This document shows, piece after piece, positions 59,702 through 64,000 of a stretch of 64,000 nucleotides of DNA. Source of the DNA: Chiayiivirga flava (lineage in GTDB: Bacteria > Pseudomonadota > Gammaproteobacteria > Xanthomonadales > Xanthomonadaceae). The notes beneath the pieces are model-generated. The model saw nothing but the letters and a program-made list of their open reading frames with translations. It was not told the origin of the DNA and made no database searches. Position 1 is the stretch's first letter. Each line of letters opens with the position of its first letter. Where the stretch lies: assembly GCF_014202825.1 (NCBI RefSeq), contig NZ_JACHHP010000002.1, positions 186,001 through 250,000 on the forward strand. The letters are read 5' to 3'. The position numbers and the translations under genes are program-made.

Positions 59702-62197
59702 TCACACGTGCGGCACGAACGTATCCTTCTCGCGCGGCCGCAGCAGCACGCGGCACAGCGCCGGCAGGAAGATGATCGCCGCGATCATGTTGACGATGAA
59801 CATGAAGGTCAGCATCACGCCCATGTCGGCCTGGAATTTCAGCTCCGAAAACACCCACATGAAGACGCCGACCGCGAGCGTCAGCGCGGTGTAGAAGATC
59901 GCGATGCCGGTGGTCTTCAGCGCGACGAAGTAGGACTCGCTCACCGTGCGTCCGGCCTGCATCGATTCGCGCATGCGCGCGAAGATGTAGATGCCGTAGT
60001 CGACGCCGATGCCCACACCCAGCGCCACCACGGTCAGCGTGTTGACCTTCATGCCGATATCCAGGTGCACCATCAGCGAGTGGCCGAGTTCGGTCACCAG
60101 CACCAGCGGCAGCACGATGCACAGTGCGGCGAGCGGGTTGCGGAAGCTGATCAGGCACATCAGAAAGACCGCGCCGTAGAGATACCAGAGCATGTGGTGT
60201 TCGACCGCGCGCACGGTGTCGTTGGTGGCCGCCATCACGCCGATATTGCCGGTGGCAAGGCGCAGGTTCACCGCGTCGCTCTGCAGTTCCTCGCCGTTGG
60301 CCTGCGCGGCCTGCGCCTGCTCGGCGAGCGTTTCGCGCAGGTTCTCGCCCGGATGCCAGGCATCGTTGGCCTCGCGGAAGTCCTTCACCGCGTCGACCAC
60401 GCGGTCGATGGTTTCGGCGCGGTGGTCGGACAGGAAGGCCATGATCGGCATTGCCGAGCAGTCGGCGTTGAGCAGGCCCGAGTCGGTTTCGAAGCCCTGG
60501 GTGGCAAGACGCAGCGAATCCGAGTCGCGCGGCAGCACGCGCCACTTGATCGAGCCGTCGTTCCAGCCGGCATTGACGATCTTCGCGGCCATCGGCAACG
60601 TCATCACCTGCTGCACGCCGGGCACGTTGGCAAGGTGCCAGGCGAAGCGGTCGACCAGTTCCATCATCGGGTAGCTCAGCGTGCATGCGTCGGGACGGCC
60701 CTCGGCGATCACGTTGAGGATGTCGACGCCGAGCGCGAACTTGCCGGTGATGGCGCGCGCATCCTGGTTGTAGCGTGCGTCGGGGCGCAGTTCGGCGACA
60801 CCTTCCTGCGCGTCGCCGATCATCACCTTGTCGCCCTGGCGCTCGGCCACGAACCACACTGCGACGCCGATGACCAGCACCACCACCGCGGCGACGGGTT
60901 TGCTGAGCTTGGACAGCACCGCCCAGACCTTATCGAAGCGGGTCAGCTGGCGCAGGCGGAATTCGCGCTTGCGCTCCATGTTGCGCAGCCGGGTGTAGCT
61001 CAGCAGCACCGGCAGCAGCACGAGGTCGGTGAGGATCGTGATCGCCACACCGACCGTGGCCGTGATCGCGAGTTCGAAGATGATCCGGATCGGGATCATC
61101 AGGATGGTGGCGAAACCGATGCAGCCCGCGATCAGCGCCACCGCACCCGGCACCAGCAGCATGCGGAACGCGAGCCGCGCGGCAGTCAGTGAGTCCACGC
61201 CCTGGCGCGCGCGCAGTTCGTCCGCGGTGCCGTCTTCGAGCCCGCCGAAAAAGAGTTCGCCGCGAAAACGGTTGATCATCTGCTCGCCGTGGCTGACCGC
61301 GATGGCGAAGATCAGGAACGGCGTCAGCATGTTCATCGGATCGATGCCGAAGCCCATCAGGCGCAGCGCACCGAGCATCCACACCACCGACACCAGCGCA
61401 GCCACCACGGTGAGGCTGGCGAGCTTCACGGACGTGGAATACAGGAACAGCAGCAGCCACGTGAACGCGATCGTGAGCGCGAAGAATTTGATGACCGAAC
61501 GCGCGCCGTCGGAGATGTCGCCCACCATCTTGGCGAAGCCGATGATGTGGACGCGGAGCCCGTCCTTCTCGTACTTGGTGCGCAAGGCCTCGAACTGGTT
61601 GGCGATGGCCTGGTAGTCGAGCTTGTTGTCCTCGGTTTCGGGGACGAGATCGGCCCAGATCATCGCGCCGGAAAAATCCTTCGCGACCAGCCGACCGACG
61701 ATGCCGGCCTTCACGATGTTGGCGCGGACGGTGGCGAAATCCTCCGGCGTGGCGCTGTCGGCGTTGAAGTCCGGCGGGATGACGTTGCCGCCGGCGAAGC
61801 CGTCCTCCACCACCTCGACGAAACGCGTGTTCGGCGTGAACAGCGAGCGAGCGCGGGCGTTGTCCGCGGCCTGGATGCCGAGCACGTCGGCGTTGAGGTT
61901 TTCGAAGGCGCGGAAGAACGCCGGATCGAACATGTCGCCGTCGTCGGCGACGAGCGCAACGAGGACGCGATTGGCGCCACCGAACTCGACTTCGTAGTCG
62001 AGGAAGGTCTGCATGTATTCGTGGTCGAGCGGAATCTGCTTCTTGAAGCCGGCGTCCACGCGCAGCTGGCTGGCGAAGAAGATCATCACCACCGTGACGA
62101 TGGCGAACAGCGCCAACACCACGGGCCGCGCGCCGAAGATCGCGTTTTCGAGGAAGCGGGTGATCGGTCCCGCGTTGACGTTGCCACCGTGCGCCAT
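59702..62197 (-). CDS. RND/MMPL superfamily exporter
   Basis: Integral membrane protein of 831 residues with about 12 helices: N-terminal helix ARPVVLALFAIVTVVMIFFA, large periplasmic loop, five-helix block with GFGIDPMNMLTPFLIFAIAVSHGEQM, a second loop and VVALGVGIGVDYGIYIFARM. This is the two-fold RND/MMPL type and not AcrB-like in length. The next upstream genes are YCF48-like and DUF1329, an arrangement seen in several proteobacteria. Likely lipid or hydrophobic compound transport; substrate unknown. Confidence 0.9.
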   Translation of the reverse strand: MAHGGNVNAGPITRFLENAIFGARPVVLALFAIVTVVMIFFASQLRVDAGFKKQIPLDHEYMQTFLDYEVEFGGANRVLVALVADDGDMFDPAFFRAFENLNADVLGIQAADNARARSLFTPNTRFVEVVEDGFAGGNVIPPDFNADSATPEDFATVRANIVKAGIVGRLVAKDFSGAMIWADLVPETEDNKLDYQAIANQFEALRTKYEKDGLRVHIIGFAKMVGDISDGARSVIKFFALTIAFTWLLLFLYSTSVKLASLTVVAALVSVVWMLGALRLMGFGIDPMNMLTPFLIFAIAVSHGEQMINRFRGELFFGGLEDGTADELRARQGVDSLTAARLAFRMLLVPGAVALIAGCIGFATILMIPIRIIFELAITATVGVAITILTDLVLLPVLLSYTRLRNMERKREFRLRQLTRFDKVWAVLSKLSKPVAAVVVLVIGVAVWFVAERQGDKVMIGDAQEGVAELRPDARYNQDARAITGKFALGVDILNVIAEGRPDACTLSYPMMELVDRFAWHLANVPGVQQVMTLPMAAKIVNAGWNDGSIKWRVLPRDSDSLRLATQGFETDSGLLNADCSAMPIMAFLSDHRAETIDRVVDAVKDFREANDAWHPGENLRETLAEQAQAAQANGEELQSDAVNLRLATGNIGVMAATNDTVRAVEHHMLWYLYGAVFLMCLISFRNPLAALCIVLPLVLVTELGHSLMVHLDIGMKVNTLTVVALGVGIGVDYGIYIFARMRESMQAGRTVSESYFVALKTTGIAIFYTALTLAVGVFMWVFSELKFQADMGVMLTFMFIVNMIAAIIFLPALCRVLLRPREKDTFVPHV

Positions 62198-62224
62198 GTC
62201 GAATGCCCTGTCAGTCGTGCCGGA

Positions 62225-63532
62225 TCACTGTTGCGTCAGGCGGGTGGTGCCCAGGCCCTTTTCGCCCGAGACGATGAGGTCCGCACCGCCGCGCGGGAGC
62301 ACGCTCGCGAGCACCGGCGTGCCGCTGGCTTCGGTGGAGTAGACCTGCGTTGCCGGGGCGGCATCGGCGGAGGCGCGATGCACGACGATGCCGTTGGCAC
62401 CCACGAGCACGACACCGCCGCCCGGCAACGGCGCGCCGCCCATGAGGCTGAGGTCGGTGCCGGTGTCCAGCGTGTTCCAGGTGTCGCCGAGATCTCTGGT
62501 CTCGAACGCGTTGCCGCGCATGCCGAAGGCGATCAGGTGGTCGCCCTCGTAGGCGATGGCGCCGAACATCGAACCCGGATACGGAAGCTGCAGCCGCTCC
62601 CAGGTGGCGCCGTCGTCGCGCGAACGGAATGCCGCACCGCGCTCGGCGACGATGAAGAGCGCGCCGCTGCCGGTGCGCACGATGCCGTTGAAGTGCGGAT
62701 CGGATTCCTCGTCCAGCACGAGTTCGTCGCTGGAGATCGTCCAGCTTTCCTCGTCGTAGGCGTCGCCTTCGTCGGTGTCGGTGTCGGTGTCAGTGTCGGC
62801 GTCGGCATCGGCGTCGGCGGCATCCGGCGCGGCATCGGCGACGGCGCCGGTGACGTCGACGCGACGCCACGTGGCCCCGCCGTCGTCGGTGCGCAGCATC
62901 AGGCTGTAGGCGCCGACGGCGATGGCGCGCTGCGCGTCCAACATCAGCACGTCGAGCAGCGGCACGCCCTGGCGCGGATCGAACTCTTCGTCGTCGGCCG
63001 GCGGGCGCTGCACGTCGATGCGCTGCACCGTCCAGGCAAGACCACCGTCCGCGCTGTGCAGGATGACGCCGTCGTGCCCGACCGCCCACGCGGTCTTGCC
63101 GCCCGCGGCCACGGCCGTCAGGGTGGCGCGCGTCGGCACGTCGGCCACCTGGCGCCAGTCGCTGCGCGACTCGGACACGAGGATCTGGCCGCGTTCGCCG
63201 ACGGCGATGGCGCGCGAGTCGCTTTCGGCGATGTCGAGGATGAGGGCCTGCGTGGCGGCGTTGGGCATGAGTTCGCTGCGCAGCGCGGCCACCGGATCGG
63301 TGGTGGCCGCCGGTGCGGCGGGCGGCGGCGCGGTGTCCGCGGCGGGCGGTGTGGCATCGACCGCCGGATCGGGTGTGGCCTCTGGCGCGGCGTCGACGGC
63401 CGGATCGGACGCGACCTTCGATGGGTCGGCCGGATCGGGCGAGGGCGACGGCTGCTGCGCGCCGACGGCCACGGTTGCACCGCACAGCGCGATGGCGACG
63501 AGCCAGCCTGCGGTCGACTGCTTCACATTCAT
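62225..63532 (-). CDS. YCF48/BNR-repeat periplasmic protein
   Basis: Protein of 435 residues with a signal peptide (MNVKQSTAGWLVAIALCGATVAVGA) and a Pro/Ala/Asp-rich linker, followed by beta-propeller blades with BNR-like motifs (ILVSESRSDWRQV, LHSADGGLAWTV, LRTDDGGATWRRV, FRSRDDGATWERL, FETRDLGDTWNTL), as in YCF48 family. An Asp-rich insert of alternating Ala/Thr-Asp (about residues 237-260) is encoded by a hexanucleotide repeat. GGAGG precedes ATG 63532. It begins 324 bases after the DUF1329 gene and ends 27 bases before the exporter gene. Confidence 0.88.
   Translation of the reverse strand: MNVKQSTAGWLVAIALCGATVAVGAQQPSPSPDPADPSKVASDPAVDAAPEATPDPAVDATPPAADTAPPPAAPAATTDPVAALRSELMPNAATQALILDIAESDSRAIAVGERGQILVSESRSDWRQVADVPTRATLTAVAAGGKTAWAVGHDGVILHSADGGLAWTVQRIDVQRPPADDEEFDPRQGVPLLDVLMLDAQRAIAVGAYSLMLRTDDGGATWRRVDVTGAVADAAPDAADADADADTDTDTDTDEGDAYDEESWTISSDELVLDEESDPHFNGIVRTGSGALFIVAERGAAFRSRDDGATWERLQLPYPGSMFGAIAYEGDHLIAFGMRGNAFETRDLGDTWNTLDTGTDLSLMGGAPLPGGGVVLVGANGIVVHRASADAAPATQVYSTEASGTPVLASVLPRGGADLIVSGEKGLGTTRLTQQ
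62771..62818. repeat. Hexanucleotide tandem repeat coding for Asp-rich insert
   Basis: Repeats of GTCGGT/GTCGGC/ATCGGC type (for example gtcggtgtcggtgtcagtgt, then cggcgtcggcatcggcgtcg) on the plus strand encode alternating Asp with Ala/Thr on the coding strand. Slippage would change length by two residues per unit without a frameshift. Confidence 0.8.
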
Positions 63533-63856
63533 GTCCCCCTCCGTCCGACGCGGTGCCGGATGCGTGCCCGGACCGATGTTCCAGTGTGTATCGAGACTAG
63601 CAGTATTCGCGACACCTGCGCCGCGCTGCTGCGCACCACGGGTGCAACATGGCGGTTCGTCAGGCCCCGAAACGCCGCCAGCCGCGCCTTTCGGCCGCGG
63701 CTGGCGGGGTGTCACGGTTCCATCGGTGCGGTCGCGTCGCGGCACCGGTTTGGTGTGCGACATGTCTCTCGTGCTGCACGTCCTCCGCCCGGCACGTGAC
63801 ACGTGTCGCATGTCCTGCGGTCGATGCGCACGCCGCGCGTGCTTCACACCCTCCGA
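63533..63856. other. Intergenic region between DUF1329 and YCF48-like genes
   Basis: Nothing coding. It contains a GC-rich hairpin at 63676-63706 and the promoter region of the YCF48-like gene, without a clear consensus promoter. Confidence 0.6.
63676..63706 (-). terminator. Possible terminator after the DUF1329 gene
   Basis: 11-bp stem CGCCAGCCGCG / CGCGGCTGGCG with a nine-base loop; on the minus strand the arm is followed by GCGTTTCGG, only a short T-run. Weak but well-placed for termination of the DUF1329 transcript, possibly as an attenuator ahead of the downstream genes. Confidence 0.5.
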
Positions 63857-64000
63857 TCAGCGCACGCCGCGCGTGCGCAGGGCCTGCGGAGTGAAGTTCT
63901 CCAGCGACGACTGGTACGAGAAGTCCGGCGCCTGATCCTGATTGTCGACACCGGTCGCGAGGTAGCGACCGCTCAACAGGTCGTGGTGGTTTTCCATCGT
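63857..64000 (-). CDS. DUF1329 domain protein, partial (N-terminus off right edge)
   Basis: 47 C-terminal codons then TGA. They read MENHHDLLSGRYLATGVDNQ..., ending NFTPQALRTRGVR, the characteristic C-terminal pattern of DUF1329 (GRYLATG and FTPxxLR). The family is periplasmic, associated with RND exporters and DUF1302 outer membrane proteins in proteobacteria. Same strand as the YCF48-like and exporter genes. Confidence 0.85.
   Translation of the reverse strand, partial: TMENHHDLLSGRYLATGVDNQDQAPDFSYQSSLENFTPQALRTRGVR

Follow-up and report, generated by a model that had tools for sequence, protein, structure and literature searches.

A lipase-led operon of Chiayiivirga flava as a candidate trans-envelope route for acyl chains in place of FadL

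The right-hand edge of a 64,000-nucleotide stretch of the Chiayiivirga flava genome (contig NZ_JACHHP010000002.1, positions 186,001 to 250,000 of the forward strand; 'the window' in the following) cuts through a five-gene operon on the minus strand, which from 5' to 3' encodes a lipase, a DUF1302 protein, a DUF1329 protein, a YCF48-like protein and an RND transporter. On balance, this operon probably provides a trans-envelope acquisition route for acyl chains from external lipids, functionally replacing FadL in most of the host order, Xanthomonadales. Three features that bear on the cargo are new here: the five-gene form with a lipase in the lead, the swapping of the lipase's partner between DUF1302 and FadL, and the rarity in this order of genomes with both FadL and DUF1302. 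None of them was found in the open-licence papers searched. The clue to the cargo, the lipase, lies outside the window and hence was invisible to the initial annotation of this DNA.

The lipase and its two channel partners

The operon's first gene (67222–69366, L005:9222–11366; coordinates above 64000 continue the window numbering into the same contig as L005 position plus 58000) belongs by its sequence to the VolA/Pla-1 family of lipoprotein phospholipases, with surface exposure and lysophospholipase activity being predicted. Its product exceeds the curated cut-off of TIGR03502 (428 versus 384 bits) and has a lipoprotein signal with the lipobox LLAAC followed by Gly. In its GQSLG motif, i.e. 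the GxSxG nucleophile motif, Ser523 is invariant in 36 of 36 aligned relatives, and His672 is likewise invariant among them. Another VolA-family lipase, in genome family f14 (L129, 1230–2954), is encoded downstream of a gene for an AMP-binding acyl-CoA synthetase and is linked to neither FadL nor DUF1302.

Within a host-order sample of 121 genomes, a listed VolA/Pla-1 lipase occurs in 76, and in 69 of these a DUF1302 gene follows directly downstream on the same strand, a linkage kept across about ten families; in three of the seven exceptions DUF1302 is found on a different contig. Outside the host order, the lipase adjoins FadL in nine of 15 genomes of a phylum-wide sample, in which none has it beside DUF1302. 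A lipase–FadL pair also exists within the host order (G053), and in a lipase tree this FadL-linked lipase falls inside the DUF1302-linked clade, while DUF1302-linked lipases of other Gammaproteobacteria (L070/L071/L077) group with the FadL-linked ones. The FadL-link label requires at least four changes on this tree and, from these placements, partners have been exchanged more than once. Members of one lipase family thus go together with either of two unrelated channels of the outer membrane, and one of the two, FadL, is known to import fatty acids.

The two channels also tend to avoid each other in the genomes of the host order. With cut-offs of >150 bits for canonical FadL and >500 bits for DUF1302, FadL is present in 36 and high-scoring DUF1302 in 79 of the 121 genomes: 34 have FadL only, 77 DUF1302 only, eight neither and just two both, with 23.5 expected to have both. 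Inside the host family the exclusion is perfect, with FadL only in 15 genomes and DUF1302 only in four, i.e. the host and three genomes of another genus. A FadE-type acyl-CoA dehydrogenase is encoded in 120 of the 121 genomes; fatty-acid degradation therefore seems to remain possible in genomes without FadL, and catabolism is not the difference. The sole genome without a FadE-type match (G019, L134) has FadL and no match to DUF1302 or the lipase. Separately, five genomes of a single family, which also have FadL (G085, G090, G095, G039 and G046; L111–L115), carry DUF1302 genes scoring 351–486 bits, which were treated as stand-alone paralogues because no DUF1329, YCF48 or RND gene is nearby.

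Layout of the operon and its products

The initial annotation had described three same-strand genes at the window's end, a partial DUF1329 gene, a YCF48-like gene and a two-fold RND gene, and had expected a DUF1302 gene just beyond 64000. Domain matches bear out the first statement. The DUF1329 gene (63857–65215, of which the 3' end, 63857–64000, is in the window) encodes 452 residues and matches PF07044 with 501 bits, the YCF48-like gene (62225–63532, 435 residues) matches PF14870 with 50 bits (cut-off 27), and the RND gene (59702–62197, 831 residues) matches PF03176 with 89 bits (cut-off 20.5). When the contig was extended, the DUF1329 gene proved intact and an intact DUF1302 gene was there, at 65236–67197 (L005:7236–9197; PF06980, 578 bits), and it is the single copy in the host genome.

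Most starts in the operon are preceded by a ribosome-binding-like sequence, and its genes are separated by 20–27 bases, the sole long gap being the 324 bases between DUF1329 and YCF48 (63533–63856). For the YCF48-like gene, the start at 63532 is better placed than that of the longest open reading frame at 63847. Domain scores, ribosome-binding-like sequences and conserved gene order together rule out a chance set of genes. About 40 bases before the lipase gene, a sigma-70-like match (TTGCCA-18-TATGAT, L005:11436–11407) is the only one in the scanned stretch, with the number of matches not being above that in shuffled sequences. A second promoter in the 324-base gap is possible; a promoter scan of this gap gave no match. 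A regulatory palindrome shared by regions upstream of lipase genes was considered and rejected, as any inverted repeat with 5-base arms was present in at most seven of 41 such regions and close relatives share sequence anyway.

How do these products fit into the cell envelope? The model of the DUF1302 protein (pLDDT, i.e. predicted local distance difference test, 90) is a beta-barrel, with porins, Occ channels and AlgE as the nearest solved structures at low TM-scores. Homology to FadL was rejected, since the protein has no PF03349 match and no FadL appears among the 50 structure matches listed; its relation to FadL is claimed to be one of functional replacement and not of family membership. 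The DUF1329 protein has a hydrophobic signal segment at its N-terminus and, in its AlphaFold2 model (pLDDT 91.6), a LolA fold: Foldseek matched it to Porphyromonas LolA3 (E 5e-17, TM-score 0.85 by target length) and to further LolA-family structures. A sequence search of solved structures with the DUF1302, DUF1329 and lipase proteins returned nothing significant. Four loci, three recorded as Wenzhouxiangella and one as Gammaproteobacteria (L045, L046, L050, L053), have two tandem DUF1329 genes between DUF1302 and YCF48.

The YCF48-like propeller protein also begins with a hydrophobic signal segment (signal peptide). Around residues 240–260 (62760–62830) it contains an Asp-rich low-complexity insert, DADADADTDTDTDTDEGD, and several of its relatives have different acidic stretches with up to 18 acidic residues per 30. 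The RND protein is built of two halves, PF03176 matching two stretches, and its best NCBIfam model is HAE3 (TIGR00921) with 131 bits, which is under that model's cut-off of 352; matches to HpnN (68 bits) and BstA (23 bits) are weak and far under cut-off. Transmembrane segment 4 carries Ser302-His303, a Ser-His pair shared by all 57 cassette RND proteins, and transmembrane segment 10 carries Asp733-Tyr734. In MmpL and HpnN proteins, Asp-Tyr would be expected in both halves. With a beta-barrel, a LolA-fold periplasmic protein, an exported propeller and an inner-membrane RND protein, the anatomy fits the trans-envelope system that the initial annotation had suggested. Its label 'RND/MMPL exporter' holds for the transporter family; 'exporter' is not established.

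Proposed route and alternative explanations

In the mechanism that we propose, the surface lipoprotein lipase of the VolA family would act outside the cell, cleaving phospholipids or other esters, and the long-chain acyl products released would cross the outer membrane via the DUF1302 barrel. In the periplasm, the LolA-fold carrier DUF1329 would receive these products, and the RND protein, driven by protons and partnered by the YCF48-like propeller, might accept them or draw them across the periplasm, so that they could then be activated and beta-oxidised. The operon would thereby take the place of the single channel FadL in most of the host order. As a cargo, lipase-released acyl chains, i.e. 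fatty acid or lysophospholipid, are moderately supported, and the RND and YCF48-like proteins would act on this same cargo. We infer the inward direction from the link to FadL together with the Pseudomonas putida homologues PP_0765/0766/2018/2019, all of which are reportedly required when this species grows on the lauric ester Tween 20 (PMC10866462). Only as a tentative idea do we put forward that the RND protein, with a relay of Ser-His in transmembrane segment 4 and Asp-Tyr in segment 10, energises an envelope-spanning uptake of lipase-released acyl lipids, with FadL replaced across the order. In a survey of neighbours of lipase-less cassettes, which covered chosen loci and had no background comparison, the genes found in other lineages included those for a FadE-type dehydrogenase (L094), AMP-binding acyl-CoA synthetases (L096, L097) and a thiolase (L098), as well as an alpha/beta hydrolase with lipase-like matches (L080).

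A number of points weigh against acyl-chain uptake by this operon. RND pumps normally transport their cargo outward. In the host organism, support comes from genes and structure models rather than from biochemistry, the DUF1302 model looks like generic porins and AlgE rather than FadL, and many immediate neighbours of the cassettes are unrelated housekeeping genes, e.g. for GatB, NhaA or fumarase. The transporter is present without the lipase in three genomes of the host family and in Arenimonas, and the host genome retains a distant FadL-family protein (62 bits). For the near-exclusion, the Fisher p of 5e-20 is too small, because genomes were treated as independent and shared ancestry inflates the exclusion statistic; counted by genera, the host family yields 1 in 36 on its own. 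Contrasts within families are few, and G055 may be a false one, because its lipase sits at a contig end. An exclusion of FadL and DUF1302 across the phylum was rejected, since Pseudomonas-like and several other lineages outside the order have both. Finally, the sole direct study, on AmeABCD, concluded export, with efflux inferred from Nile Red accumulating slightly more in mutant cells treated with protonophore and with real-time efflux almost identical in both strains (PMC6394551).

Such AmeABCD-like efflux, in which the RND protein would extrude toxic hydrophobic compounds, including fatty acids freed by the lipase, via DUF1329 and DUF1302, is in our estimate rather unlikely. It would agree with membership in the RND family, with what the AmeABCD authors infer, and with a lipase that would produce toxic fatty acids next to the cell, but it leaves the partner exchange with FadL and the absence of FadL alongside the operon unexplained, does not account for the Tween 20 growth requirement, and draws on AmeABCD evidence that is itself slight. 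The LolA fold of DUF1329 and the weak RND matches to HpnN and BstA, which act on hopanoids and sterols (PMC10942540), could also speak for envelope upkeep, i.e. for endogenous lipids being moved between inner and outer membrane while the lipase remodels outer-membrane phospholipid. We regard this as improbable, as the operon is patchy in the host family, most of whose genera carry FadL in its place, catabolic genes are among the neighbours, and growth on Tween 20 or monoterpenes involves related genes. It is also conceivable, if very improbable, that nothing but history has placed the lipase next to the transporter, with the latter having another hydrophobic compound as its cargo and the absence of FadL being a matter of lineage inheritance. 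Although the core cassette occurs without a lipase in several phyla, DUF1302 or DUF1329 genes are associated elsewhere with degraders of monoterpenes, phenanthrene or benzene, and the exclusion test was made without correction for phylogeny, such a history would have to accommodate both a linkage conserved across about ten families and the fact that lipases of separate clades are paired with FadL as a second channel.

Should the operon indeed serve the uptake of acyl chains, the consequences would reach beyond this order. According to one account (PMC9496633), no protein but FadL is known to take up long-chain fatty acids in Gram-negative bacteria, and its replacement by the operon would mean that a second, non-homologous and multi-protein uptake route exists. 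Two widespread families, DUF1302 in the outer membrane and DUF1329 in the periplasm, are still without a settled function, and RND proteins are regarded as exporters; the function of these two families as well as the direction of one RND branch would become testable. The link to FadL thus gives a little-understood four-part transporter a concrete, testable cargo.

Relation to known systems

A scan of named genomes with a DUF1302 alignment yielded 80 loci from several phyla, including Desulfobacteraceae and Acidobacteriota, and almost every locus that was long enough has the order DUF1302–DUF1329–YCF48–RND, in line with the recurring association with DUF1302 that the initial annotation had mentioned. 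The nearest named locus is that of a Lysobacteraceae metagenome-assembled genome, with 77% identity over DUF1302, which places the host among Lysobacteraceae. In Arenimonas daejeonensis KACC 14631 (L040), the DUF1302, DUF1329 and RND frames are each fragmented, by either sequencing error or decay.

The four-gene core in this order is already known, and the association as such is not new: it corresponds to AmeABCD of Castellaniella defragrans (PMC6394551), which consists of a DUF1302 protein, a DUF1329/LolA protein (AmeB), a YCF48-like protein (COG4447; AmeC) and an HAE3-type RND protein (AmeD). In C. flava, too, these four genes are adjacent, on the same strand and in the same order. The likeness is one of families and gene order, and AmeABCD differs in having no lipase, in lying within a monoterpene-degradation island and in having been read as efflux. 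The Pseudomonas putida proteins PP_0765/PP_0766 and PP_2018/PP_2019 represent a comparable set, in which DUF1302 and DUF1329 proteins are predicted to interact with a periplasmic and an RND protein (PMC10866462), but they are encoded at two separate loci. This split is matched in Marinobacter, Oleiphilaceae and Pseudomonas loci, in which DUF1302 and DUF1329 alone are adjacent and an RND homologue is located elsewhere in the genome. HpnN and BstABC are similar inasmuch as HpnN and BstA, too, belong to the MMPL-type RND proteins and act on envelope lipids; their partners and cargo are different, however, and their sequence similarity to the cassette RND protein is weak. For the lipase, the counterpart is the VolA–FadL pair of Vibrio cholerae, where VolA releases fatty acids that are imported by FadL (PMC12208996, PMC9496633). 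In both cases, a lipase of the same family, in C. flava one predicted to be surface-exposed, is encoded beside an outer-membrane channel. In V. cholerae the surface lipase supplies exogenous fatty acids, and the channel FadL is a single protein that is not homologous to DUF1302 and operates without LolA-like, propeller or RND partners.
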